64,000 bases of DNA from Chloroflexota bacterium (lineage in GTDB: Bacteria > Chloroflexota > Anaerolineae > Aggregatilineales > Phototrophicaceae). Of the stretch, positions 6,490-49,254 are shown one piece after another. The notes beneath the pieces were generated by a model. The model did no database searches. It was given only the letters and a program-made list of their open reading frames with translations, and was not told the origin of the DNA. How positions within the stretch are numbered: position 1 is the stretch's first letter; every line of letters starts with the position of its first letter. Both the position numbers and the translations under genes were made by a program. The stretch covers positions 186,001 through 250,000 of the forward strand of contig JACRPS010000003.1 of assembly GCA_016223085.1 (NCBI GenBank). Direction: 5' to 3'.

Positions 6490-6517
6490 GTGGGGACACG
6501 ATATATCGTGTCCCTAC
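6490..6517. repeat. Palindromic element, core type ACACGATATATCGTGT (copy 4)
   Basis: Ends GTGGGGAC and GTCCCTAC flank an ACGATATATCGT core. It sits between the rpoB stop codon and the rpoB terminator. Confidence 0.9.
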
Positions 6518-10849: not shown

Positions 10850-12772
10850 ATGTTCCGATTGCGACCCGCCCGCTTGCAGGTCAAACTCACCCTCACCTTT
10901 CTGGTGACACTGCTCCTGCCAGCCGCCATGATTGCTGTTTACACCTCCCATTCCCAGACGAATCACCTGATTCAGAACGCGGTGGAAAACCAGCTTAACG
11001 AAGCCCGCACCAAAGCCAGGCTGGTGGAACTGGCTTTCAACCGTGCGACAGCCGATGTGGTCTTTTTGACGCAGGGCGCGGCCATCACCAGCTATGCCGA
11101 GGCGGTCAGCGCGGGCGACAGCCCTGCCCAGAGCGCCGCCCTGGAGCGTCTGAAAACCTCGTTTGCGGCCTTTTCCCGCAATATGCAGGTTTATGACCAG
11201 GTGCGGCTGCTGGGGCTGGACGGCATGGAACGGGTCGGCGTGAATTACCGTGACGGTGACGCGCTGGTTGTGCCGGTGGCGGAACTCCAGAACCAGGCCG
11301 GGCATGACTATTTTGACGAGGCGCTGGAGTTAGCGCGGGGACAGGTCTTTACCAGCGCATTACACCTGAATGTCGAACGGGGTCAGATCGAACTCCCGCA
11401 CAAACCCGTTATCCGGTTTTCCACGCCGCTGTACAGCGGCAACCGTTTGGTCGGTGTTGTGGTCACAACCATGCTGGCGGACACCTTCCTGTCGCTGGTC
11501 ACGGCTGACCAGCCCGAGGCACGGGCCTTCCTGATTGACGCCAGTGACGGTACGTATCTGGCCGGCCCGGACGCCGGCAGACTGTTCGGGCGTGATTTGC
11601 AAACCGGCAGCAGCTTCTTCACCGACTTCCCCAACGACGCCAGTGCCATGCTGGTGCGGGATGAAGGCGCGCTGTTTGGCACTGGTGACCAGCCGGACAC
11701 CTTAGTCTCGTTCAGCCGCGTGCGCCCGCCGGGGCAGGACAGCATCAACTGGATGCTGTACCTGACGCTGCCCACCCATACCGTACTATCACAGCTAGAC
11801 GGACTGCGTAATGACATCCTGACGATTGCCGGTTTCAGTCTGCTGGGCGCGGTTGCCCTGTCGCTGATCGTCACACGCGGCCTGGCGCATCCCATCGTGC
11901 AGCTTGCCACCGCCGCCAGACAGATTGGCCAGGGTCAGCTTGATACCCCCATCCCGGTCCCCGCTCACCGCGACGAGATCACCGAACTGGCCGAAGCCTT
12001 CGCCGTGATGGCAAAGGAACTGCACCACACCGTGACCACGATGGAAGCCACCATCGCCAGCCGCACCCGCGATCTGGAAACGGCGGCCCAGGTGAACGCG
12101 CAGATTTCCACCATTCTGGACACCAACCGGCTGCTGCAGGATGTGGTTGACCTGACCAAGGAACGCTTCCGCCTGTACCACGCGCACATCTACCTGCTGG
12201 ATGACAGCGGCACAACGCTGCGGCTGGCGTCCGGCGCGGGGCACGTGGGGCGGCAGATGGTGGCCGAAGGCAAACAGATCGCGCTGGATAATCCGCAAAG
12301 TATCGTGGCGCAGGCCGCGCGCACGCGGCGCGGTGTCATCATCAATGATGTCACCACCGCCTCGACCTTCCTGCCCAATCCGCTGCTGCCGGACACCCGC
12401 GCCGAACTGGCCGTGCCGCTGGTCGCGCGCGGGCAACTGCTGGGCGTTCTGGACGTGCAGAGCGCCGAAACCGGCTACTTCAGCCAGAACACGCTGGCCG
12501 TCATCGAACTGATGGCCGGCCAGATCGCTTCCGCCATCAGCAACGCCCGCCTGTACGAAGCCGCCGAGCGCACCAGCCGCCACGAGCAGGCGCTAGGCAA
12601 AATTGACCGCAAAATCCAGGGCGCGGTGACCATGGATGACATTCTCAAGACGACCGTCCGCGAACTGGGTAAGGCGCTGCGTGTGCCGTATACCGCCATC
12701 GAACTTCAGCTACCGGAGGAAGCAACCACTCCTGAATCAGCTCCGTCCGGCTACAGCAGCGCGGCGGAGTAA
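10850..12772 (+). CDS. Membrane sensor protein: Cache-like, HAMP and GAF domains, no kinase
   Basis: 640 residues. A first membrane helix (about residues 12-31, LTLTFLVTLLLPAAMIAVY) and a second (about 325-345) enclose an extracytoplasmic Cache-like ligand domain. A HAMP linker follows (LAHPIVQLATAARQIGQGQL), then a GAF domain (about 410-570, with VVDLTKERFRLYHAHIYLLD and ELAVPLVARGQLLGVLDVQS). The protein ends about 60 residues later, at the start of what may be another GAF, without any HisKA, HATPase, GGDEF or methyl-accepting domain. It lies 8 bases before the histidine kinase gene. It probably senses a signal for that kinase, or is the front half of a once longer sensor. Confidence 0.85.
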   Translation: MFRLRPARLQVKLTLTFLVTLLLPAAMIAVYTSHSQTNHLIQNAVENQLNEARTKARLVELAFNRATADVVFLTQGAAITSYAEAVSAGDSPAQSAALERLKTSFAAFSRNMQVYDQVRLLGLDGMERVGVNYRDGDALVVPVAELQNQAGHDYFDEALELARGQVFTSALHLNVERGQIELPHKPVIRFSTPLYSGNRLVGVVVTTMLADTFLSLVTADQPEARAFLIDASDGTYLAGPDAGRLFGRDLQTGSSFFTDFPNDASAMLVRDEGALFGTGDQPDTLVSFSRVRPPGQDSINWMLYLTLPTHTVLSQLDGLRNDILTIAGFSLLGAVALSLIVTRGLAHPIVQLATAARQIGQGQLDTPIPVPAHRDEITELAEAFAVMAKELHHTVTTMEATIASRTRDLETAAQVNAQISTILDTNRLLQDVVDLTKERFRLYHAHIYLLDDSGTTLRLASGAGHVGRQMVAEGKQIALDNPQSIVAQAARTRRGVIINDVTTASTFLPNPLLPDTRAELAVPLVARGQLLGVLDVQSAETGYFSQNTLAVIELMAGQIASAISNARLYEAAERTSRHEQALGKIDRKIQGAVTMDDILKTTVRELGKALRVPYTAIELQLPEEATTPESAPSGYSSAAE

Positions 12773-12780
12773 GGATTATT

Positions 12781-15700
12781 ATGAACATCCGAACCAAGCT
12801 CTACCTGTTTTTTGGCGGCCTGTTCCTGCTGGTGGTGGCAACCGCCGGGGTAGTGGCGGCCACCTCGTTCAACATCTGGAATCAGTTTGTCCACTTCAAC
12901 GATGTCCACCTGAGGCTGTCCTCGCTGGCAAACGACATTCGTTACTACGATGCCAGCCTGACGGATGCCGTGCGCGCCTATCTCATCAGCCCGGCAGACC
13001 GCGCCAGCTACGACCGGTACTTCCGGGACGGCGCGGCGCTCGCCGCCGTCCTGCAGGAAGCGCAGCGGTTGGCGACCACCCCGGACGACCGGCAGCTTTT
13101 CCAGGACATTGACCGTATCAACGCTCAACTGGTTCAGATCGAGGAGGCACTGCTGGCGAATCCGACGCTTGACACGGCCATTTCCCGGTTCGAGAGCGAC
13201 TACGGCGCGTTGAAACAGCAATATGCTGACCGGGTGAATCAGTTCTTCCAGCGCCAGCAGAGCGCCCTTGCCGCCGCGACCGGCGCGATTGATACGCAGA
13301 TCAATCAGGCGCTAACCGTTGGCCTCGTGCTGATGGTCGCGCTGCTGGTCGTCAGCGTTAGCGCCGCGACCGCCCTCAGCCGTTCGATCTTAAACCCGCT
13401 GCTGGCGCTGGTCCACGCGACCGAACAAATCTCAGCCGGCAACTGGAACGCGCCGCTGCCCGGTGTCGGGCGGGACGAAATTGGACTTCTGACGCGCAGT
13501 TTTGGTACGATGACGCAGCACGTCCGCAGCCTGATTCAAACGCTCGAACAGCGCAGCCAGCAGCTCGAGGCCCGCACCAACGATCTGGCAACCACCATCG
13601 AGGTGGGCAGGCTGGCGACCACCATCTACAGCCAGGACGAACTGCTGCCACAACTGGTGGAATTTATCCGCGCCCGTTTTGGTCTGGATTACACCCAGAT
13701 TTACCTGCTGGACGAAGCCGGACGATACGCCATCCTGAGCGCCGGCACGGGTGAAATCGGCCAGCAACTGCTGCGCCGGCAGCACCGCCTGAATCTGGCG
13801 GAAACGTCGCTGGTCGCCCGCGCCGTGCAAAGCGGCCAGACCGTGCTGGTCACTGACACAACGACCAGCACCATTCACAAAGCCAACGATCTGCTGCCGG
13901 ATACACGCTCGGAAGTGACCATCCCGCTGGTCGCCGCCGGTACGATCATCGGCGTGCTGGACATGCAGTCGAACCAGGTCGGCGCGTTTAATGCCGACAA
14001 CGTGCCGGTATTTGAGGCGATGGCAAGCCAGATCGCCGCCGTGTTACACGGCAGCCAGGTATACGATGCTGCGCAGATCGCCGGCTTCGAGGCGGAAGCG
14101 TTAAACCAGCGCCTGACCGCCGAAACCTGGCAGAGTTATCTGGGCGAACTGGCGGAAGGCCGGCGCGTGGGTTACGAATACGATCTGGAAATGCCGCGCG
14201 CGTTGTACGACGACCCAACGGCCAAGCCAGCCGCCAGCGACCTCGTGCAGCCGGTGCTGCTGCGCGGCCAGCCGATTGGCCGCGTGGTCGTCCAGGACGA
14301 CGCGGAGCGGGTGTGGCAGCCGGAAGAACGGCTGCTGATTGCGGACATCGCCAGCCGCGTGGCACAGGCGCTGGAACAACTGCGCGCCTTCGACCAAGTG
14401 AAGCAGGCGGAGGCGGAAGTCCGGCGGAACGAACAGCTTATCCGCACTGTGATTGACAGCACGCCCGACTGGATTATGGTGAAGGACCGCCACTACCGCT
14501 ACCTGCTGGTCAACCAGAGCTACGCCAGCGCGCTGGGCATGACGCCGGAAATGATGGTTGGCAAGGACGATCTCGAACTGGGCTTCCCGGCAGAACTGGT
14601 GCTGGGCAACCCCGACAAGGGGATTCGCGGCTTCCGCACCGACGACACCACCGTGCTGACAACCGGCCAGACCATCCATAACCCGAACGACCCGGCCACC
14701 TTCGCCGATGGTTCGCTGCACATCTTCGACACGCACAAGGTCCCCCTGTACGACCATGACGGGAATGTGATCGCCGTGCTGGCCTTCGCGCGGGACATCA
14801 CCGAACGCCGGCAGCAGGAAGAAGCCACCCGGCAGGCCCGCGAAGAAGCGGAAATCCTGTACCGGGTGAGCGCCGCGATCAACGAAGCCAGCGACCTCCA
14901 GCAAATTGTCGAGGCGCTTGGCCGCTTGATCGCGCCGGAAGAAACGCTGTCGGTTACGCTGTCGGCCTTCCCGACCGGCGATTACAAAACCTCGAAGACG
15001 GTGAAGGTGCTGGCGAACTGGATGCGCAGCGGCGGCACGATGGCCGGGCTGGAACTGCCGATTGACAGCTTCGGCCAGAACGGGGCAACCAACCCCTACT
15101 CGATCAATCGCATGAGCGATGTCGCTACCGACCCCCGGCTGGACGATGACACCCGCCAGACCTATCTGGCGCTGGGCATCGGCGCCAGCATTAGCGCCCC
15201 GCTGCTGATTGACAAACGGCTGGCAGGCACGATCAGCCTGCAAACCAGCGTGCCCTACGATTTTACCGAGCGCCACGAGCGTATCTTCCGCGCCATCGCG
15301 GAACAGACCGCCGCCGCGCTGGAACGCCAGCAGCTTATCCAGGAAACGCAGAAACGCGCCAGCGAACTGGAGACAGTGGCGCGGGTGAGCGCCGCCGCCA
15401 CCACGCTCCTCAATATGGACGATCTGCTGCTGTCGGTGTGTGACCTCACCCGGCAGAGTTTCGATCTCTACCACGTTCACATCTACCTGCTGGATGCTTC
15501 CGGCGCGAATCTGGCGCTGGCCGCCGGTTCCGGCGAGGCTGGACGGCTGATGAAACAGGAAGGGCGCTCGATTGCCCTCAGCCACCCCAACAGTCTGGTC
15601 GCCCGCGCTGCCCGCGAACGGCGGGGTGTGATCGCCAACGATGTGACGAAGGCGCCGGACTTCCTGCCACACCCGATGCTGCCGCTGACGCAGTCGGAAA

Positions 15701-16596
15701 TGGCTGTCCCGATGGTAGTAGCCGGTGAACTGATCGGCGTGCTGGACGTGCAGGCCAGCGTTACTAACCGCTTCACCGACGAGGACGTGCGGATTAAAAC
15801 CACGCTGGCCGACCAGATTGCCATCGCCATCCAGAACGCGCGGGCTTACCAGGTGCAGCAGGAAACGGCGGAACGGCTGCGCGAGGTTGACCGGCTGAAA
15901 TCGCAGTTCCTGGCGAACATGAGCCACGAGCTGCGCACGCCGCTGAACTCGATCATCGGCTATGCCGAGGTGCTGCTGGACGGCATTGACGGCGACCTGA
16001 GCGACGAAGCCATCGAGGACGTGCAGGCGATTCACGGTGGTGGCAAACATCTGCTCTCGATCATCAACGACATCCTGGACCTGGCGAAAATTGACGCCGG
16101 GCAGATGGTGATGGACCGGCGCGAAACCAGCCTGACCCAGATCATCGAAGAAGTTGTCCGCACCTGCCAGATTCTGGTGAAGGACAAGGGGATCACCCTG
16201 ACGTTCGACCAGCCGGATAGCTTCCCAATGGTCTACGGCGACCCGGTACGCCTGCGCCAGATTGTCTACAACCTGGTGAATAACGCCATCAAGTTCACCG
16301 AACAGGGCGGTGTAACCATCAGCCTGGGTTTGCTGGACAATCAGGAAGTGTGTGTCAGCGTCACGGATACCGGCATCGGCATGACCGAAGCCGACCTGAG
16401 CGTGATCTTTGAACGCTTCCGCCAAGTGGACGGTTCGGCCACGCGGCGCGCCGGCGGCACCGGGCTGGGGCTGGCGATCACGCGGCAGTTGGTGCAGATG
16501 CACGAGGGTGAAATCCACGTCACCAGCGAGAAGGGCAAGGGATCAACCTTCTGGTTCTCGCTGCCGATCTTCCAGCCGCAGGTAACGTCGTCCTAA
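12781..16596 (+). CDS. Multi-GAF/PAS sensor histidine kinase
   Basis: 1271 residues. Order: helix at about 8-28, an extracytoplasmic helical-bundle region, helix about 178-200, HAMP (NPLLALVHATEQISAGNW), GAF1 (275-425), PAS (about 550-670, TPDWIMVKDRHYRYLLVNQS), GAF2 (690-855), GAF3 (860-1020), then the kinase core. The phospho-accepting His is about residue 1049 in ANMSHELRTPLNSIIGYAE; the N box is LRQIVYNLVNNAIKFTE, G1 TDTGIGM, F box IFERFRQVDG, G2 GGTGLGLAI. There is no attached receiver; the likely phosphate acceptors are the receiver domains encoded by the next two genes. GAF3 closely resembles the GAF of the preceding sensor, suggesting internal duplication. Confidence 0.95.
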   Translation: MNIRTKLYLFFGGLFLLVVATAGVVAATSFNIWNQFVHFNDVHLRLSSLANDIRYYDASLTDAVRAYLISPADRASYDRYFRDGAALAAVLQEAQRLATTPDDRQLFQDIDRINAQLVQIEEALLANPTLDTAISRFESDYGALKQQYADRVNQFFQRQQSALAAATGAIDTQINQALTVGLVLMVALLVVSVSAATALSRSILNPLLALVHATEQISAGNWNAPLPGVGRDEIGLLTRSFGTMTQHVRSLIQTLEQRSQQLEARTNDLATTIEVGRLATTIYSQDELLPQLVEFIRARFGLDYTQIYLLDEAGRYAILSAGTGEIGQQLLRRQHRLNLAETSLVARAVQSGQTVLVTDTTTSTIHKANDLLPDTRSEVTIPLVAAGTIIGVLDMQSNQVGAFNADNVPVFEAMASQIAAVLHGSQVYDAAQIAGFEAEALNQRLTAETWQSYLGELAEGRRVGYEYDLEMPRALYDDPTAKPAASDLVQPVLLRGQPIGRVVVQDDAERVWQPEERLLIADIASRVAQALEQLRAFDQVKQAEAEVRRNEQLIRTVIDSTPDWIMVKDRHYRYLLVNQSYASALGMTPEMMVGKDDLELGFPAELVLGNPDKGIRGFRTDDTTVLTTGQTIHNPNDPATFADGSLHIFDTHKVPLYDHDGNVIAVLAFARDITERRQQEEATRQAREEAEILYRVSAAINEASDLQQIVEALGRLIAPEETLSVTLSAFPTGDYKTSKTVKVLANWMRSGGTMAGLELPIDSFGQNGATNPYSINRMSDVATDPRLDDDTRQTYLALGIGASISAPLLIDKRLAGTISLQTSVPYDFTERHERIFRAIAEQTAAALERQQLIQETQKRASELETVARVSAAATTLLNMDDLLLSVCDLTRQSFDLYHVHIYLLDASGANLALAAGSGEAGRLMKQEGRSIALSHPNSLVARAARERRGVIANDVTKAPDFLPHPMLPLTQSEMAVPMVVAGELIGVLDVQASVTNRFTDEDVRIKTTLADQIAIAIQNARAYQVQQETAERLREVDRLKSQFLANMSHELRTPLNSIIGYAEVLLDGIDGDLSDEAIEDVQAIHGGGKHLLSIINDILDLAKIDAGQMVMDRRETSLTQIIEEVVRTCQILVKDKGITLTFDQPDSFPMVYGDPVRLRQIVYNLVNNAIKFTEQGGVTISLGLLDNQEVCVSVTDTGIGMTEADLSVIFERFRQVDGSATRRAGGTGLGLAITRQLVQMHEGEIHVTSEKGKGSTFWFSLPIFQPQVTSS

Positions 16597-16600
16597 TTTT

Positions 16601-16627
16601 ATAGGGGCGCACGGTTGTGCGCCCTAC
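16601..16627. repeat. Palindromic element, core type GCGCACGGTTGTGCGC (copy 5)
   Basis: ATAGGGGCGCAC and GTGCGCCCTAC are imperfect inverted arms. It lies between the histidine kinase stop and the PLP-REC-REC gene. Confidence 0.8.
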
Positions 16628-16649: not shown

Positions 16650-18740
16650 ATGCCGTCGTTTTTTAGCCATATCGTCTGTCTGGAATGCGGCCACGCCATG
16701 CCCGCCGACTTCGCCGCCACTACCTGCGCGGCCTGCGGCTCGCAGTGGCTGGATGCGCGCTATGATTACGCGGCGGTAGCCCGGTTGTGGCCGGCGGCGC
16801 TGGCCGGGCGTGAGCGCAATCTGTGGCGCTACGGCGAACTGCTGCCGCTGGCCGAACCCGACCCCGAAATTTCGATGGGCGAAGGTTTTACCTCGCTGAC
16901 GCGGCTGTACAGCTACGAACGGCTGTACCAGCACGAGCATATCTACATCAAGGACGAACGCCAGGGGCCGACCAGTTCGTTTAAGGACCGGCAAGCGGCG
17001 CTGGCTGTCACCGCCATGCGGCGCGCCGGCATTACCGAATGTGTGCTGGCCTCGACCGGCAACGCCGGCGCGGCCTATGCCGCCTACTGCGCCCGCGCCG
17101 GGATTAAGCTGTGGCTGTTCCTCACCAGCCTCGTGCCATCGGAAAAAATGCGCGAGGCGGCGCTGTATGGCGCGGAAGTGATTAAAGTCTCCGGCACGTA
17201 TGACGAAACCAAACACGTTGCCGCCGGGTTCGCCAGACGGAAGGGCATCCACCTTGACCGGGGCGCGAAGGCAATTCCCGGTAAGGAAAGCATGAAAACG
17301 CTGGCCTACGAGATCGCCGAACAACTGGCGTACAGGCTGGCTGACAGCCGCTGGCGCAGCCCGGACTGGTACATTCAGGCGGTCAGCGGTGGCATCGGGC
17401 CGATGGGTGTGTGGAAGGGTTTCCTCGAACTACAGCAGATGGGCCTCATTGACCGGATGCCAAAGCTGGGTCTGATTCAGGCCGCCGGCTGCGCGCCGAT
17501 GGTGAACGCCTTCCGGGCGGGCGCCGCCGAGGCCGCGCCGGTCATTCCCAGAACCCTCATCACGGTGCTGGCGACCGGCGACCCCGGTTTCAGCTACCGC
17601 TATCTGCGCGAAGCTGTCCTCAGCAACGGTGGCACGATGGCAGCAATTGAGGATGGGCGCACCTTCGAAGCGATGCGGCGGCTGGCGAGCAAAGCCGGTT
17701 ATTCGGTTGAACCGGCGACAGCAGTCGCCTTCGCCGGGCTGGAAAAGCTACTGCAGGACGGCACGATCAAACCGGGTGAAGTTGTCGTCGTCAACTGCTC
17801 CGGCCACACCTTCACCGCGGAAAGCCATATCCTCGGCGACCAGTACGTTCATGATCTTAATTTAGCCGCCGGCCACGCGCCGGACGAAGGGCTGGACGCG
17901 GCGATTCGGATTCTGGACGAACAGGTCACATCCATTCTGGTGGTGGACGACAATGCCAGCGACCGGCGGCTCATCCGGCGGCTGCTGCAACGCTACAAAC
18001 GCTACCGCATCTACGAGGCCGCCAGCGGCGCCGAGGCGCTGGCCGTCATCCGCGACCACAAACCCGATTTTATCATCACCGATCTGACCATGCCGGAGAT
18101 GGACGGCTTCACGCTGCTGGAACAGCTTAAACACAACCCGGACACAGCCGCGATTCCGGTGGTGGTGGTTTCCGCCAAAACGCTGACCGACGTGGACACC
18201 CGGCTGCTGCAAGCCTACTCCGAATCGGTCTGGACGAAGGGCGGCTTCGATACGCGCCAGTTGGTCGAGCATGTGGTGCAGGCGCTCGGCCACGATGCGG
18301 CGATAAACGGTCAGCGCCAGCCAGCCGCCAGAAGCCTTTCGCTGACGGTTGAAACGACTGAGGTCGCCCATCAGCAGCAGATCGTCATCATCGAGGACAA
18401 CCCGCACGACCTGCGGCTGGCGCGCCGCCTGCTGGAAAGCGAAGGCAGCTACCGCATTATCACGGCGACGTCCGGGCGCGACGGTCTCAAAGCGATTTAC
18501 GAGCATCACCCGGATTTGATTGTGCTGGACCTGATGCTGCCGGAGATGGACGGGTTCGAAGTGCTGCGGGCGGTGCGCGACGACGCCGGACTGCGCGACA
18601 TTCCGATTGTGGTGCTGTCCGCCAAAGAGCTATCGGCGGCAGAGCGGGCGGCGCTGACGCCGTTCACTGCATCGGTGATCGAAAAGGCGGCGTTCGACCG
18701 CCGCCAGTTTTTGTATACCGTCAACACCATTTTGAGGTAG
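16650..18740 (+). CDS. Threonine synthase-like PLP enzyme fused to two response-regulator receiver domains
   Basis: 696 residues in one uninterrupted frame. Residues 1-420 form a fold-type II PLP enzyme like threonine synthase, which converts O-phosphohomoserine to threonine: an N-terminal Cys4 zinc-ribbon-like motif (C10, C13, C26, C29), the PLP lysine in GPTSSFKDRQAAL (about K112), the STGNAGAAYAAYCARAG loop, SGGIGPMGVWKGF and NCSGHT. Residues about 428-550 are a receiver (ILVVDDNASDRR, phospho-Asp in IITDLTMPEMDGF, Lys in VWTKGGF). Residues about 574-695 are a second (IVIIEDNPHDLR, VLDLMLPEMDGF, Lys in VIEKAAF). All phosphorylation residues look intact. It follows a histidine kinase by 53 bases, so enzyme control by phosphorelay is inferred. 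ATG 16650 is preferred to GTG 16617, which lies in a repeat. Confidence 0.88.
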   Translation: MPSFFSHIVCLECGHAMPADFAATTCAACGSQWLDARYDYAAVARLWPAALAGRERNLWRYGELLPLAEPDPEISMGEGFTSLTRLYSYERLYQHEHIYIKDERQGPTSSFKDRQAALAVTAMRRAGITECVLASTGNAGAAYAAYCARAGIKLWLFLTSLVPSEKMREAALYGAEVIKVSGTYDETKHVAAGFARRKGIHLDRGAKAIPGKESMKTLAYEIAEQLAYRLADSRWRSPDWYIQAVSGGIGPMGVWKGFLELQQMGLIDRMPKLGLIQAAGCAPMVNAFRAGAAEAAPVIPRTLITVLATGDPGFSYRYLREAVLSNGGTMAAIEDGRTFEAMRRLASKAGYSVEPATAVAFAGLEKLLQDGTIKPGEVVVVNCSGHTFTAESHILGDQYVHDLNLAAGHAPDEGLDAAIRILDEQVTSILVVDDNASDRRLIRRLLQRYKRYRIYEAASGAEALAVIRDHKPDFIITDLTMPEMDGFTLLEQLKHNPDTAAIPVVVVSAKTLTDVDTRLLQAYSESVWTKGGFDTRQLVEHVVQALGHDAAINGQRQPAARSLSLTVETTEVAHQQQIVIIEDNPHDLRLARRLLESEGSYRIITATSGRDGLKAIYEHHPDLIVLDLMLPEMDGFEVLRAVRDDAGLRDIPIVVLSAKELSAAERAALTPFTASVIEKAAFDRRQFLYTVNTILR

Positions 18741-18764
18741 GGACACGATCTATCGTGTCCCCAC
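18737..18764. repeat. Palindromic element, core type ACACGATCTATCGTGT (copy 6)
   Basis: Ends GTAGGGAC and GTCCCCAC flank ACGATCTATCGT. Its second to fourth bases are the TAG stop codon of the PLP-REC-REC gene, and its end lies 20 bases before the start of the next receiver gene. Confidence 0.9.
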
Positions 18765-18784
18765 ACAGTTGTGAGGGAGCGCCG

Positions 18785-19156
18785 GTGAGCCGCATTCTGA
18801 TTATCGAAGACAACCTGAACAACGCCCGCATGGCTGCCAAACTGCTGGAACATGCCGGGCACGAGGTGATTACCGCCGAGGATGGCGAAGGTGGTATCAT
18901 GAGGCTGATGGAATGCCAGCCGGACGCCGTGCTGGTGGATTTGGGACTGCCGGACATTGACGGCCAGACGCTGGTCGCCATGCTGCGCCAGCAGCCCGAT
19001 CTGGAGCATATGCCCATCATCGCCTTTACCGCCTGGCCGGAAGCCAGCGCCGTTGAGATGGCGCGCGCCTACGGCTGCGATGGCGTGATTGTCAAGCCGA
19101 TTGACACGCGCGGCTTTGCCGGGCAGGTGGCGCACTACCTGCGCCGGCGGCCCTGA
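18785..19156 (+). CDS. Single-domain response regulator (CheY/DivK-like)
   Basis: 123 residues forming only a receiver domain: ILIIEDNLNNARMAAKLLE with the acidic pocket, phospho-Asp in AVLVDLGLPDIDGQ, Thr in IIAFTAWPE and Lys in GVIVKPID. With no output domain it must act by protein contact or as a phosphate shuttle. The GTG at 18785 is chosen because GAGGGAG lies just upstream; an earlier in-frame GTG at 18755 is inside a palindromic repeat. It is third in line behind the histidine kinase and PLP-REC-REC genes, which are its most likely partners. Confidence 0.92.
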   Translation: MSRILIIEDNLNNARMAAKLLEHAGHEVITAEDGEGGIMRLMECQPDAVLVDLGLPDIDGQTLVAMLRQQPDLEHMPIIAFTAWPEASAVEMARAYGCDGVIVKPIDTRGFAGQVAHYLRRRP

Positions 19157-19177: not shown

Positions 19178-20062
19178 ATGGAGTATTCTGCTGTGCCCAT
19201 GCCTGTCGCCTCGCCGTCGCCATACTGCGCCGTGCCCGCCAGCGGCTACCCTTTTCAGGCGCTGGCGGACATCTACAACCAGACGCGGATTGATTACATC
19301 GTGCCCATGCCGATGAACGCCCGCCGCATGGAATTGTACGTCAGCACCTATGACATTGATCTGGGCGCTTCGATCATCGCGCTGGATACCGATGGCGACC
19401 CTGCCGGTATCGGCATGTTGGGGCTGCGCGGCGACCGGGCGTGGCTGACGCGGCTGGGCGTGCTGCCGTGCAAACGCGGCCACCAACTGGGGCGGTTTAT
19501 GATGGAGTCGCTGCTGGAACAGGCAGCGCGGCGTTCCGCCAGGCAGGCGCAGTTGGAAGTGATTAAGGGCAATGCACCCGCGCATCGGCTGTTCCTCAAG
19601 TTCGGCTTTGAGGAAACGCGCGAACTGCTGGTTATCCGGCGTCCGCCCGGCCAACCAGCGATGGACAACCCTCTGCCCGACGCGACCGTAAGCGCCTTAC
19701 AACCGGCAGACATCGCGGCCTGCCTGGAACAGCGCCCGCCCGGCGCATCGTGGATTGACGAAACACCCTCGCTGCTTCACGCCGGCAGCCTGCAGGGACT
19801 GCGTCTGGAACTGCCGTCCGGCGACAGCGGCTGGGTGGTTTACCAGAATACAGCTTTTCAGATCGCCTACATCGTGCTGCATGTAGCGCCGACCGACGGG
19901 GAAACGATGGCGCGGGCGCTGCTGTATCACCTGCACCGGCTGCACCCGCTTCAGGATACAAAGGTGGAAAACCTGCCCGCGCTGGACGCACACTGGCCGG
20001 CGTTCCAGTCTACGGGTTACGTCGAAGCCTTCCGCCGGATTGAGATGCGGATGACCCTGTAA
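19178..20062 (+). CDS. GNAT-family acetyltransferase
   Basis: 294 residues. The GNAT core lies at about residues 45-150: an acceptor-side strand, LTRLGVLPCKRGHQLGRFMMESLLEQA as the CoA-binding loop and helix, and the closing GNAPAHRLFLKFGFEE. The C-terminal 140 residues resemble a second, degenerate GNAT-like half without a clear CoA loop. The start is uncertain: ATG 19178 lacks a well-spaced site, while a GTG at 19193 has GGAG nine bases upstream. It lies 21 bases after the receiver gene and probably belongs to the signalling operon. Confidence 0.8.
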   Translation: MEYSAVPMPVASPSPYCAVPASGYPFQALADIYNQTRIDYIVPMPMNARRMELYVSTYDIDLGASIIALDTDGDPAGIGMLGLRGDRAWLTRLGVLPCKRGHQLGRFMMESLLEQAARRSARQAQLEVIKGNAPAHRLFLKFGFEETRELLVIRRPPGQPAMDNPLPDATVSALQPADIAACLEQRPPGASWIDETPSLLHAGSLQGLRLELPSGDSGWVVYQNTAFQIAYIVLHVAPTDGETMARALLYHLHRLHPLQDTKVENLPALDAHWPAFQSTGYVEAFRRIEMRMTL

Positions 20063-25419: not shown

Positions 25420-25476
25420 CCGCGCCCATCACCTGCTATAATGACCGCGTTATCCGCCACAGGACCAGGGCAAGCT

Positions 25477-28400
25477 ATGGCTAAAGCACTCACTTTTCAG
25501 GAAGTTATCCTCAAATTGCATGAATTCTGGGCGAACCAGGGTTGCGTGATCTGGAATCCCTACAACGTTCAGGTCGGCGCGGGCACCAATAACCCGGCGA
25601 CCCTGCTGCGTGTACTGGGGCCGGAACCCTGGCGCGTGGCTTACGTCGAGCCGAGCGTGCGCCCCGACGATGGCCGCTACGGCGAAAACCCGAACCGGAT
25701 GCAGTATTATTTCCAGTATCAGGTTATCCTCAAGCCTGACCCCGGCAACCCGCAGGAGATTTACCTGCAATCGCTGGAGGCGTTGGGCATTAACCCGCGT
25801 GAGCATGACATTCGCTTTGTTGAGGACAACTGGGAAAGTCCGGCACTGGGCGCGTGGGGGCTGGGCTGGGAAGTCTGGCTGGACGGCCAGGAAATCACCC
25901 AGTTCACCTACTTCCAGCAGGCTGGCGGACTGGAAACCAACCCGGTCTCGGTGGAGATCACCTACGGGCTGGAGCGTATCACACTGGCGCTGCAAGGCAA
26001 AAATGCGGTGTGGGACATTGACTGGCAGAAAGGGTTGGCCTACGGCGACCTGTTCCTGCAAAGTGAGATCGAACACTGCCAGTATTACTTCGAGATTGCC
26101 GACATCGAAGGGCTGAAGCAGGTCTACAACGTATACGAGCAGGAAAGCAAACGGGCGCTGGCCGCCGGCGCGCTCATCCCGGCCTATGACTACGTGCTGA
26201 AGTGCAGCCACCTGTTTAACGTGCTGGACGCGCGTGGCGCGATTGGCGTGACCGAACGCGCCGCCTACTTCCACCGGATGCGCAACATGACCCGCGACGT
26301 GGCAAAGGCGTTCGCCCAGCAGCGCGAAGCGTTGGGCTATCCCTTCCTCAAAACGTCGAAGGGGTGGGAAGCACCGCCGTTGCAGGAACCCCCCGTAGGG
26401 GCGCGCGGCGGTGCGCCCCTACCAGACCGCGCCGACTTCCTGCTCGAAATCGGCGTCGAGGAACTGCCCGCCGCTGACGTGGACAGCGCCCAGGAGCAGC
26501 TTGAAGACCTGGCGCTGACGCTGTTTGACAACCTGCGCCTGAAGCCGCAGGAAGGCATTATGGTGTTCAGCACACCCCGGCGGATGGTGCTGGCGGCCTG
26601 GGACGTGCCGACGCGCCAGGCGGACGTGGAGCGCATCGAAAAAGGCCCGCCTGCCGCGCGCGCCTTTGACGCCGAGGGCAGGCCGACCAAAGCGGCGGAA
26701 GGCTTCGCCCGCAGCCGGGGTGTGGACATCAGCGCGCTGAAAGTGCAGGAACTGGACGGCGGGCAGTACGTCACGGCGCTGGTGCGGGAAACGGGCCGCC
26801 CCGCGCTCGACGTGCTGGCGGAGGCACTGCCGAAGCTGATCGCGGACATCCGGTTCGGCAAGGCCATGCGCTGGAACGCCAGCGGCGTCGCCTTCTCGCG
26901 CCCGATTCGCTGGCTGACCGCGCTGCTCGGCGGGCAGGTGATCCCGTTCGCTTATGCCGGCGTCGCCAGCGGGAGCGTGACGCGCGGCCTGCGCCCATTC
27001 GGTTCACCGGACGTAACGGTGCAGGGTTTACAACAGTATCTGGACGCGCTCAAGGACCAGGGCATCATCCTCAACGGCGAGACACGGCGCGAGGCCATCC
27101 GCGACCAGATTCACGCGCTGGCGGCGGAGGTGAGCGGGCGCATCCCGGACGACCCCGGCCTGCTGGACGAAGTGACCAATCTGGTCGAGCGGCCAACCGC
27201 GCTGCGCGGCACGTTTGAAGACAAATACCTAGAACTGCCGCGCGAGGTGCTGGTGACGGTCATGCGCAAGCACCAGCGGTATTTCCCGGTTGAGGATGCC
27301 AGCGGCAAACTCTTGCCCTATTTCATCGCCGTCCGCAACGGCGACGCCAAACATCTGGACAAGGTGATTGACGGCAACGAACACGTGCTGCGCGCGCGCT
27401 TCTCCGACGCGGCCTACTTCTATCAGTCAGACATCCAGAAGCCGCTGCGGGATTACCTGCCGCGCCTGTCTACGCTGACGTTTCAGGAAAAACTCGGCTC
27501 AATGCTGGACAAAAACGAGCGTGTCTCGAAGCTGGTTGCGCCGCTGGCCGATCTGCTCGGCGTTTCCGAAACCGACACCAGCATCGCGCAGCGCGCCGCG
27601 CACATCCTCAAGGCCGATCTCGCTACGCAGATGGTGGTTGAAATGACTTCGCTGCAAGGCGTGATGGGGCGCGAATATGCCCTGCTGCAAGGCCAGCCGC
27701 CGGAAGTCGCCAACGCCATCTTTGAACACTGGCTGCCGCGCAGCGCCGAGGATAGCCTGCCGGCCAGCGCTGCCGGGACAGTGCTGGCAATCGCCGACCG
27801 GCTCGATAGCCTGGTGGGTCTGTTCGCCGTCGGCCTCGCGCCCCGCTCCACCGCCGACCCCTACGGCCTGCGCCGCGCCGCCTTAGGCATCATTCAAATC
27901 CTGGTGGCGAAGCACAAGGACGTGGACTTGCGCACGGCTATTGAACTGGCGGCGTTGCAGCAGCCGGTGGAAGTCTCGGCGGAGGCGCGCGCCGACGTGC
28001 TGGAGTTCATCGGCGGGCGGCTGCGGTCATGGGTCGAAGAGCAGGACTGGCCGCGCGACGTGATCGCCGCCGTGCTGGCGGAGCAGTCGCACAACCCGTA
28101 CCGCGCCCTGCAAGGCATCGAACAGCTCAGCACGTGGGTGAAGCGTCCCAACTGGGAAGCGATTCTCGACAGCTTTGCCCGCTGCGTGCGCATCACACGC
28201 GGCGAGGAAACGGTGTATGCCGCGAACCCCGACAGCTTCAGCGAGCCGCAGGAAAAACGCCTATACGACGCTTACCAGCAGGCAGCGGATAAGCTGGACG
28301 CCGGCGACAACGTGGACGCCTTCCTGCGAGCCTTTGAGCCGATGCTGCCCGCCATTACCGACTTCTTCGATCACGTGATGGTCAACGTCGAGGACGACAC

Positions 28401-28488
28401 CACGCGGCAGAACCGCCTCGGACTGTTGCAGGCCATCAGCGCCATGCAGCGGGGTCGCGCGGATTTGAGTTACCTCAGCGGGTTCTAG
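25477..28488 (+). CDS. glyQS: Glycyl-tRNA synthetase, fused alpha and beta subunits
   Basis: Charges tRNA-Gly. 1003 residues: the first 305 are the class II alpha (GlyQ) subunit with [20 protein letters not shown], the [26 protein letters not shown] block and [15 protein letters not shown]; residues about 318-1003 are the beta (GlyS) subunit with [21 protein letters not shown], the [10 protein letters not shown] block, the HD-like [15 protein letters not shown] region and a C-terminal anticodon-binding DALR part. Alpha and beta are separate genes in most bacteria and fused in some, such as Chlamydia. Here the joint (residues 307-316, [10 protein letters not shown]) is a copy of the palindromic element read in frame. 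ATG 25477 has AGGG upstream. Confidence 0.97.
26395..26422. repeat. Palindromic element inserted in frame at the glyQ/glyS joint (copy 7)
   Basis: GTAGGGGCGC and GCGCCCCTAC flank a short GCGGCGGT centre. The reading frame passes straight through as VGARGGAPL(P), forming the linker between the two synthetase subunits. Confidence 0.92.
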
Positions 28489-33839: not shown

Positions 33840-34817
33840 ATGGCGACCCTCATCTACTGCCCCATCTGCGGCCACATGTTCGGCCAGCGCAGGGAAGGCG
33901 GGCGGCTGCGGCAGGCCTGCCCCAACTGCGGCTACGTGCATTACGTCAATCCGGTGCCGGCGGTGGGGCTGCTGATCGAGATGGACGGCGGCCTGGTACT
34001 GATCTGCCGGGGACAGGCGCCGCACAAGGGCGAGTGGACGCTGCCCAGCGGCTTCATTGAAGCGGACGAAAGCGCCGAAGACGCGGCAGTGCGCGAGGCC
34101 GAAGAAGAAACCGGCCTCAAAACCGAAATCATCGAACTGGCGGGCGTGAACTCGTTCCCGGAAGGGCCGCCGACCAGCGGTATTATCATCTTCTTCCGCT
34201 TGCGTCCGGTCGGCGGTGAGTTACGCGGCGGCGACGACGCCACCGAAGCGCGGGTGTTCCAGCCGCATGAACTGCCGGTGCTGCCGTTCCGCACGCACCG
34301 CGAAGCGGTGGCGCAGTGGCTCGAACAGCGCCAGCGGCAAACAGGGGAAATGCAGGCCATCCCGCGCAAACCGCGCCGCAGGCCGTTCCTCATCCGTCCG
34401 GCAGAAGCCGCTGACGCGGACGAAATCATGGGGCTGCTGGCGCTGATTCCGGCCAACCGCGATTTGCCACAGGAAGCATGGCAGGAAATCCGGTGGCGCT
34501 TCCGCGAGAGCAACGGTTTCGAGATTTTTGTGGCGGAGGCCAACCAGCAACCGCCGCTGATTATCGGCTTCATTACCCTGTCCATCGTGCGGACGCTGAC
34601 GGAAGGGCGCGGTTTCATCAGCGACATGGCCGTGTTGCCGACCTATCAACGGCGCGGCGTGGGCGCGGCGCTGCTGGAAGCCGCCTTGCAGGCTGCCGAG
34701 CGCCATAATTTGAGTTATATCCAGGTCAACGCGGAACGCGCCAACGAACGGGCGCGGGCATTTTACGCCGCGCTTGGCTTCTCCGAGGACACGGTGATGC
34801 GGCTGCGGCTGCGGTAG
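33840..34817 (+). CDS. Nudix hydrolase fused to GNAT acetyltransferase
   Basis: 325 residues. It begins with a Cys4 zinc ribbon (YCPICGHMFG and QACPNCGYVHY), followed by a Nudix domain whose box reads GFIEADESAEDAAVREAEEETGL, the metal-binding pattern GX5EX7REUXEEXGU. Residues about 180-325 are a separate GNAT domain with FISDMAVLPTYQRRGVGAAL as the CoA loop and NERARAFYAALGF at the end. The zinc ribbon plus Nudix half resembles NADH or ADP-ribose pyrophosphatases that act on nucleotide diphosphates. The combination in one chain is uncommon and suggests linked detoxification or modification steps; substrates are unknown. Confidence 0.88.
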   Translation: MATLIYCPICGHMFGQRREGGRLRQACPNCGYVHYVNPVPAVGLLIEMDGGLVLICRGQAPHKGEWTLPSGFIEADESAEDAAVREAEEETGLKTEIIELAGVNSFPEGPPTSGIIIFFRLRPVGGELRGGDDATEARVFQPHELPVLPFRTHREAVAQWLEQRQRQTGEMQAIPRKPRRRPFLIRPAEAADADEIMGLLALIPANRDLPQEAWQEIRWRFRESNGFEIFVAEANQQPPLIIGFITLSIVRTLTEGRGFISDMAVLPTYQRRGVGAALLEAALQAAERHNLSYIQVNAERANERARAFYAALGFSEDTVMRLRLR

Positions 34818-47907: not shown

Positions 47908-49254
47908 ATGACGATGGATGTAGCTTTGTTTATAACGGTTGGGGTGGTCGCCGTCGCCGCCGCCGTGATGATGCTATTGAGCGAAAACGCGGTTCACAGC
48001 GCGTTGTTCCTCATCATCAACTTCATGGGCGTGGCATTTTTGTACCTGATGCTCGACGCGCCCTTCCTGACGATGATCCAGATTGCGGTTTACGCCGGCG
48101 CGATCATGGTGCTGTTTTTGTTTGTCATCATGCTCCTTGGCGCCGAAAAGCTGGGCGAACCAACCCGCCAGTTCCGTTGGCTGGCGCCGGTTTCGCTGGC
48201 GCTGGCGCTGGCGTTTCTGGTCATCACCAGCATCGCCATCATTCAGGGGCGGATTGACCTGCAAGGCCCGGCCACGCAGCCGCCGGCGCTGCGCGTTGTT
48301 AACGCCCTGACGGATGCCGGCGCGGTGGATGTGTACCTCAACGGCGAACGGGTCGCGCCCGCCCTGCCCTTTGGCGAAGCCACTGAGTACACCGTATTAC
48401 CCGCCGCTGCTGTGGTTGCTGTTGACGGCGCCGAAGCCGATACAGGCCGCGAGTACACGCTGACGATCAACGCCGCCGGGACAGATACGGCGTTGATGAC
48501 ATCGCCGCTGGTCCTTGCCAGCCGCACCGACCGGCAGATTAATGCCTATACGGTCGTGGCGCACGGCACCAGCAGCGCCCCACAGGCGAGTCTGGTGTCA
48601 GATAATCTGGAAACCACCGACAACCGTGCCGGGCGGTTAACCCTGTTTAACGCCTTCGAGCGCCCGGTTGACCTGTGGAATTTCCGCTCTGAAACCAATC
48701 CCGACGACGACGTGGCTGTGACCACCGACCTTGCCCCCGGTAGCGGTGTTGAATTGGCCGCCATCCCGGAGAATACCGACCTGCGCGCCTGGGCTTTCAC
48801 CGAAGCGGGCAATAAAGAGGCCGTTCTGTTCCGGCTGAACAATCCCGAAGTGTACCGTATCCGCCGCGATGAGGCGCAACTGCTGGTGTTTGCCGGCGAA
48901 CACATCGCTGACGGCACGGAGCAGGGTTCGATTCGTCCGGTAGCGCTGCCGGTTGCCAGCCGCGCGGCTGCCGACTTCGGCGGGCCGCATGGCGCGGGCG
49001 AACTGCTGTTTACGCGCTACATGCTGCCGGTACAACTGCTGGCCGTGCTGCTGCTGGTCGCCATGATCGGCGCGATTGTGCTGACGCACAAGGAGACCTT
49101 CCAGCCGCGCCGCCGCGACGTGCGCCGCCGTGTCGCCCAGCCGTTGACGACGGCCATCTCCGCCCAGGTCGGCCAGGACGTGCTGCAGCCCGGCGAAGAA
49201 ACACCCCGGCTGCCACCGCAGGAAGACGAACAGCCGCAGCCAGTAGGGGATTAA
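47908..49254 (+). CDS. nuoJ: NADH-quinone oxidoreductase subunit J with inserted DUF4397-like domain
   Basis: NuoJ is a five-helix membrane subunit of roughly 160-200 residues. This one has 448. Residues 1-110 hold the first four helices with HSALFLIINFMGVAFLYLML and YAGAIMVLFLFVIMLLG, and residues about 368-392 the last helix (YMLPVQLLAVLLLVAMIGAI). Between them, residues about 113-347 form an inserted beta-rich domain: ALRVVNALTDAGAVDVYLNG and EYTLTINAAGTD look like DUF4397, a domain usually found in secreted proteins, and a weaker second copy follows (RLTLFNAFERPVDLWNF). Given NuoJ topology the insert probably faces the outside of the membrane. Frame and codon use are continuous, so it is not a misassembly by sequence alone. 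Confidence 0.93.
   Translation: MTMDVALFITVGVVAVAAAVMMLLSENAVHSALFLIINFMGVAFLYLMLDAPFLTMIQIAVYAGAIMVLFLFVIMLLGAEKLGEPTRQFRWLAPVSLALALAFLVITSIAIIQGRIDLQGPATQPPALRVVNALTDAGAVDVYLNGERVAPALPFGEATEYTVLPAAAVVAVDGAEADTGREYTLTINAAGTDTALMTSPLVLASRTDRQINAYTVVAHGTSSAPQASLVSDNLETTDNRAGRLTLFNAFERPVDLWNFRSETNPDDDVAVTTDLAPGSGVELAAIPENTDLRAWAFTEAGNKEAVLFRLNNPEVYRIRRDEAQLLVFAGEHIADGTEQGSIRPVALPVASRAAADFGGPHGAGELLFTRYMLPVQLLAVLLLVAMIGAIVLTHKETFQPRRRDVRRRVAQPLTTAISAQVGQDVLQPGEETPRLPPQEDEQPQPVGD

Follow-up and report, generated by a model that had tools for sequence, protein, structure and literature searches.

Receiver (REC) domains joined to standard metabolic enzymes are a known trend among bacterial response regulators (RRs) (PMC5847659; this and the other papers cited by PMC number are taken from the sections available). 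The AAT-fold ornithine, lysine and arginine decarboxylases include enzymes of amino-acid metabolism that use pyridoxal phosphate (PLP) and are fused to one N-terminal receiver-like wing, which is needed for decamer formation, and the fused forms make up a single clade (PMC8503589). In MocR/GabR a PLP-binding enzyme fold likewise sits on a regulatory domain, an aminotransferase-like domain that senses γ-aminobutyric acid (GABA) being joined to a DNA-binding winged helix-turn-helix (wHTH) (PMC6917764, PMC5320631). The 64-kb stretch of a Chloroflexota genome analysed here (the window; contig JACRPS010000003.1, positions 186,001 to 250,000) encodes another such arrangement. Its protein P0001 has a fold-type II PLP domain (Pfam PALP) followed by two RECs, and its gene lies directly downstream of a histidine kinase (HK) gene on the same strand. 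P0001 may be an RR with a PLP-enzyme output from the threonine synthase lineage that is gated by the adjacent kinase, a reading given here about an even chance.

P0001 differs from each of these systems. Compared with the RRs of PMC5847659, the PALP-REC fusion is set apart by its class-wide occurrence and by a kinase operon that recurs with it. Unlike the winged decarboxylases, its family has fold type II, one or two C-terminal RECs with intact phospho-sites, and an adjacent kinase gene. MocR/GabR pair an aminotransferase-like fold with a wHTH, whereas P0001 pairs fold type II with RECs, and Pfam found neither a winged HTH nor an aminotransferase-like domain in P0001. An enzyme as partner of a receiver, called unusual in a preliminary description of the sequence, is less so given the trend and the decarboxylase fusions (PMC5847659, PMC8503589). 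Fusions of receivers with metabolic enzymes are already known; the combination described here is a fold-type II enzyme, functional-looking C-terminal receivers and a class-wide kinase operon. The matches listed from the open literature include no account of a PALP-receiver fusion, but that literature leaves out key response-regulator reviews, and absence from print does not follow; the word 'pyridoxal' is absent from the available sections of PMC4558063.

Threonine synthase (ThrC; PRK08197, TIGR00260) shares with P0001 the PALP fold, the N-terminal Cys4 ribbon, the PLP lysine in PTxSFK and the GCAP motif. P0001 differs from it in the C-terminal receivers, in scores below the curated cut-offs, in the loss of the arginine aligned with R160 of Thermus thermophilus, and in a conserved set of the fusions' own that includes R104, Q115, SGGxGP and SGHT. 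The closest structure by Z score, plant threonine synthase with S-adenosylmethionine (2c2b), shares this fold and is itself regulated. It is subject to small-ligand regulation, S-adenosylmethionine presumably being its allosteric activator, whereas P0001 has an attached receiver.

Domain architecture and conservation of P0001

The P0001 frame is open from an ATG at 16650 to 18740, a single continuous frame of 696 amino acids (aa) as had been described, and an in-frame GTG also lies at 16617. Pfam places PALP with E 4e-60 and the two Response_reg stretches with E 5e-41 (Table 1). The pocket of REC1 consists of D433/D434, D478, S508 and K530, and that of REC2 of E582/D583, D627, S657 and K679, so the acidic pair, phospho-acceptor Asp and Lys previously noted are present in both. 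D434, D478 and K530 of REC1 are kept in 75/75 aligned rows; the REC2 phospho-Asp is found in 57/57 rows and the Lys in all 56 rows that have that position. With its acidic pairs, phospho-acceptor Asp, S/T and Lys residues and its linked kinase, P0001 has the build expected of an RR with enzymatic output.

Residue counts for the PLP domain cover 130 fusion rows, of which 71 have two receivers and 59 a single one; these rows hold near-duplicates and the window protein twice (with two start codons). The counts also cover 28 stand-alone relatives, with ten other PALP proteins omitted. Thinning at 90% identity reduces the fusion rows to 112. All 130 fusion rows retain the PLP lysine K112, N138 (the cofactor asparagine) and the Cys4 ribbon, and all 112 thinned rows retain K112 and N138, in agreement with the Cys4 motif, the lysine in SSFKD and the PLP fold recognized earlier. 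Between aa 74 and 390, 80 positions reach at least 97% conservation in the fusions, and 21 of these are rare in the stand-alone relatives, among them the near-invariant R104, Q115, G205, S246, P251, T309, N382, H386 and T387. The window genome carries two paralogues, PALP-REC-REC and PALP-REC, the latter without receiver 2, and these are 58% identical in the PLP domain versus 39% in receiver 1. In principle the PLP domain could do no more than dimerise the receivers, as a structural scaffold or relic, much as the receiver-like domain serves assembly in the decarboxylase fusions (PMC8503589). The cofactor site of a relic should have drifted, yet K112 and N138 are invariant and the 80 positions are nearly so, which makes this role very unlikely.

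The AlphaFold2 model of P0001 has a mean predicted local distance difference test (pLDDT) score of 88, with segments below 50 only at 389-424 and 551-572. Its PLP half best matches threonine synthases: 2c2b with Z 45.0 and a root-mean-square deviation (rmsd) of 2.7 over 389 residues, and 1v7c with Z 40.6 and rmsd 2.1 over 323 residues. A structure alignment (A2) holds P0001 and 74 of 77 thinned named proteins. P0001 has the fold, the PLP lysine and the cofactor residues of threonine synthase. In a quick PALP tree with long-branch warnings (84 fusion rows after thinning, the same ten proteins omitted), the PLP domains of the fusions form one branch apart from the 28 stand-alone proteins, with a Shimodaira-Hasegawa-like approximate likelihood ratio test (SH-aLRT) value of 100. 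This tree and the full-length alignment of both fusion types suggest a single fusion event.

Distribution and gene order of the fusion family

Close homologues of P0001 (54-100% identity over at least 550 residues, no internal stop) occur in 30 of 61 genomes, its own included; the match spans both receivers in 29 of these and ends after REC1 in one (G042). A second set of matches, mostly at 45-51% identity, is the PALP-REC paralogue of about 560 aa. Using a profile built from both fusion types, 143 of the 396 genomes in a class sample match at E <= 1e-150, in 80/222 genera. In a phylum sample 268 of 400 genomes match at E <= 1e-60. By manual count, only 42 of them do so at E values of about 1e-225 or below, with matches that cover almost the full profile and take in the receiver. 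After these, E values resume at 1e-91, and the matches stop around profile position 390-430, where those of stand-alone threonine synthase-like proteins would be expected to stop. Seven of the 42 carriers are outside the class. Six belong to a single genus (g92) and the seventh is G071; one of the six (G170) is taken as Herpetosiphon aurantiacus, a cultured predator, whose PALP-REC has 545 aa and is encoded at L182:6295-7932 (+).

A scan of named contigs gave 582 confirmed relatives, and the best 80 of these have Chloroflexota-type titles (Anaerolineae, Thermoflexia, Ardenticatenales, Brevefilum fermentans and Thermoflexus sp. among them) save two, L131 ('bacterium') and L125 (Pleurocapsa minor), the second being treated as a mislabelled Chloroflexota bin. 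L131 was considered as a kinase fusion in a 1695-aa frame and rejected, since some ~1000 residues at its N-terminus appear to be translated from the wrong frame. The best places in plasmid records are below 60% identity, with up to 35.1% among the matches listed (25 of 135 records), and the best in phage records are also below 60%, with up to 31.7% among the matches listed (5 of 9 records).

This distribution bears on whether the fusion is an artefact of a frameshift, a chimeric contig or an annotation error. Most of the best 80 of 582 relatives are titled as metagenome-assembled genomes, which counts in favour of an artefact, but the same PALP-REC junction recurs in 127 distinct loci and in stretches from 16 class or phylum genomes outside the window's order, one of them taken as H. 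aurantiacus. The homologues in the 30 genomes read through the junction, where a stop or frameshift had been named as the point to check. An artefact is therefore hardly conceivable.

Gene order was compared in 127 related loci, kept from 140 fetched (L043-L182, the window locus not among them) after dropping those that had no recognised fusion frame or an identical core. Neighbour domains were called as phmmer matches to probes from window and related proteins, and these calls are rough. A same-strand HK gene is directly upstream of the fusion in 96/127 loci. The preliminary description had noted a neighbouring kinase in the window; the H-box of that kinase (SHELRT) begins at aa 1048. Another 5/127 loci are near a contig edge. 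Where a same-strand kinase lies within 6 kb (101 loci), the gap to the fusion has a median of 24 bp and is at most 100 bp in 77. The next same-strand downstream gene has a receiver in 98/127 loci (81 single receivers, 16 receiver-kinases, 1 double receiver).

Two operon-like layouts recur. The first is a kinase, then PALP-REC-REC or PALP-REC, then a receiver; a GNAT gene follows within four genes in 23 of the 48 PALP-REC-REC loci in which a kinase is the immediate upstream neighbour. The second is a kinase-REC(-REC), then PALP-REC, then a receiver-kinase or nothing, then an EamA transporter. EamA is found on the same strand within four genes downstream in 21/26 PALP-REC loci behind a kinase-REC (23/26 on either strand) and in 0/70 loci whose kinase has no terminal receiver. 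Within the same distance downstream, 8/22 PALP-REC loci behind a receiver-less kinase, 4/26 kinase-REC loci and 1/48 PALP-REC-REC loci carry a stand-alone threonine synthase-like gene.

Relation to threonine synthase and predicted function

P0001 scores below both curated threonine synthase cut-offs, with 264.4 against 303 for PRK08197 and 148.1 (148-150) against 167.1 for TIGR00260. The PALP-REC paralogue (L063:7423-9099) is just above the TIGR00260 cut-off at 168.4 (168-170) and below that of PRK08197 at 283.7. The top TIGR00260 match of the genome is a separate gene (C35:52410-53390, minus strand, 261 bits), about 250 bp from the top thrB match (C35:53646-54548, plus strand, 240 bits). A stand-alone copy of the same genome (L003) passes PRK08197 (311) yet lacks the R160-aligned arginine, so this cut-off is no proof of function.

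None of the 130 fusions has the R160-aligned arginine, which 21/28 stand-alone relatives do have, L009 (the copy linked to thrB) among them. At position 308 a further arginine is present in 0/130 fusions and 19/28 stand-alone proteins; for both sites the fusion count stays at 0 in the 112 thinned rows. Thermus R160, with N154, S155 and N188, is taken to be a ligand of the phosphate of the substrate phosphohomoserine, the numbering being matched by motif alignment. The other seven of the 28 stand-alone rows are also without this arginine, five of them making up a subgroup in which an Arg stands three positions before this site, so that 21/28 describes a mixed set and not proven threonine synthases. 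The sub-cut-off scores, the lost arginines and the separate thrB-linked thrC indicate that P0001 is probably not a biosynthetic threonine synthase, and plain threonine biosynthesis was set aside as its function on these grounds. The description of P0001 as threonine synthase-like thus holds for its fold, cofactor residues and nearest families, and is doubtful as an enzyme identity.

P0001 could still be a threonine synthase under phosphorelay control. Its nearest named families and best structure matches are threonine synthases, its paralogue just clears TIGR00260, a stand-alone threonine synthase-like gene lies near some PALP-REC loci (the 8/22 above), and the newly conserved R104 and Q115 could in principle rebuild the phosphate site. 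Besides the scores, the arginines and the thrB-linked thrC, it counts against this reading that the downstream stand-alone ThrC is itself canonical where tested (PRK08197 585 bits in L145) and that the R160-aligned Arg is present in the seven such rows aligned. A gated threonine synthase is therefore unlikely. A cyanobacterial ThrC also deaminates threonine (PMC12172450), which makes a changed ThrC-like enzyme with another reaction plausible.

The main rival is that the PLP domain is a sensor, in which an amino acid bound as external aldimine would alter the phosphorylation or interactions of the receivers. MocR/GabR are a precedent for a PLP fold as sensor (PMC6917764, PMC5320631), and REC-associated domains can be inputs (PMC5847659). 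The loss of the R160-aligned arginine and the same-strand EamA genes behind kinase-REC loci are also in its favour. None of the five window-locus proteins scanned with Pfam has a DNA-binding domain, no wider neighbour search having been made, and the signal must exit by another route. On the other side, catalysis is the usual role of a fold-type II PLP fold. The PLP domain also has an unusually strict conserved set of its own, better kept than receiver 1, which would fit either reading. A sensor is possible, and we hold it tentatively as a minority reading.

Phospho-gating of the PLP domain appears the best-supported reading from sequence comparison and gene order. The upstream multi-GAF kinase, set by its GAF, PAS and HAMP modules, would phosphorylate D478 of receiver 1, as gene order and the intact pockets suggest, and probably also D627 of receiver 2. 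Phosphorylation of the receivers would change how active the PLP domain is or how it assembles; this domain is predicted to carry PLP on K112 and to have an amino acid as its substrate. The substrate is perhaps of the aspartate/threonine branch, and probably not O-phosphohomoserine. The downstream receiver, or the receiver-kinase at the paralogous locus, may branch the same phosphorelay to other outputs.

Several observations weigh against gating by the adjacent kinase. The invariant PLP site is equally expected of a PLP-based sensor. The linker between the PLP domain and receiver 1 is of low confidence in both models (predicted template modelling score, pTM, 0.62 and 0.70), which leaves no fixed docking surface to support gating. 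The second acidic residue of REC2 is Asp in 54/57 rows and is replaced by E, Q or T in one row each. In 26/127 loci, including several PALP-REC loci of the window's family, no kinase is directly upstream though the contig continues, and 29/127 (two at a contig end) have no same-strand receiver gene next downstream. In five of the 26 (L129, L135, L136, L139, L141) a receiver-cyclase gene, called by Pfam for L141 and by probe match for the other four, lies between the kinase and PALP-REC-REC. These five loci also speak for the RR reading, since their operons carry another RR with an enzyme.

Window features and biological meaning

Table 1. Coordinates of P0001, its domains and its neighbours in the window
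Feature	Position	Strand	Basis or remark
Sensor-like protein: bacterial HK sensor domain, HAMP, GAF	10850..12772	+	Pfam; no kinase domain found in frame
HK, 1271 aa: HAMP, three GAF stretches, PAS, HisKA, HATPase_c	12781..16596	+	Pfam
PALP-REC-REC fusion protein P0001, 696 aa	16650..18740	+	Open reading frame (ORF) and Pfam
Cys4 ribbon C10, C13, C26, C29	16677..16736	+	Kept in 130/130 fusion rows
Fold-type II PLP domain, PALP aa 74-384	16869..17801	+	Pfam and structure matches
Predicted PLP Schiff-base lysine K112, in SSFKD	16983..16985	+	Kept in 130/130 fusion rows
Receiver 1, aa 429-541; phospho-acceptor D478 at 18081-18083	17934..18272	+	Pfam and alignment
Receiver 2, about aa 577-696; phospho-acceptor D627 at 18528-18530	18378..18737	+	Pfam and alignment
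Stand-alone receiver	18755..19156	+	Pfam
GNAT acetyltransferase	19178..20062	+	Pfam

The contig that encodes P0001 is 1.47 Mb long and belongs to a genome of 6.0 Mb assembled into 37 contigs. A stem, GGGGCGCACGG..GTGCGCCC, is found at 16604-16625 between the kinase and fusion genes. The window has six exact copies of the perfect palindrome GGGACACGATNNATCGTGTCCC, at 6493, 18740, 38396, 40315, 42311 and 49270, where 0.01 would be expected (up to 3 mismatches being permitted in the search). This palindrome has 143 copies genome-wide, with none for the reversed control pattern, and looks like a repetitive extragenic palindromic (REP)-type repeat. One copy sits between the fusion gene and the next receiver gene; the first GTG of that receiver ORF is inside the palindrome (18740-18761), and the start may be the GTG at 18785.

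Elsewhere in the window, a NuoJ (complex I chain 6) with a DUF4397 domain is encoded at 47908-49254 (+). NuoJ relatives of ~200 aa match it only at 1-126 and about 340-410, so the DUF4397 domain looks inserted inside NuoJ, and near-full-length matches are found in 30 of the 41 genomes searched, the window genome included. NUDIX and GNAT domains share one frame at 33840-34817 (+), and the alpha and beta subunits of glycyl-tRNA synthetase form one 1015-aa frame at 25441-28488 (+).

The fusion family is broad and has a cultured carrier, H. aurantiacus, which opens it to bench work. Should its PLP domain prove a sensor, phosphorelay signalling would have an equivalent of the MocR/GabR principle built on fold type II. 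Should the PLP domain be gated by the receivers, amino-acid chemistry would come under the direct control of a two-component system, bypassing transcription. In its fullest form, a speculative picture that we think has less than an even chance, the fusion would be an old phosphorelay output of Anaerolineae and Herpetosiphon. Its fold-type II PLP enzyme would have a new amino-acid chemistry that does not form threonine, and receiver phosphorylation would switch it directly. A multi-GAF kinase would then control an amino-acid pool without transcription, and the kinase-REC-REC version would be coupled to an EamA-type exporter.
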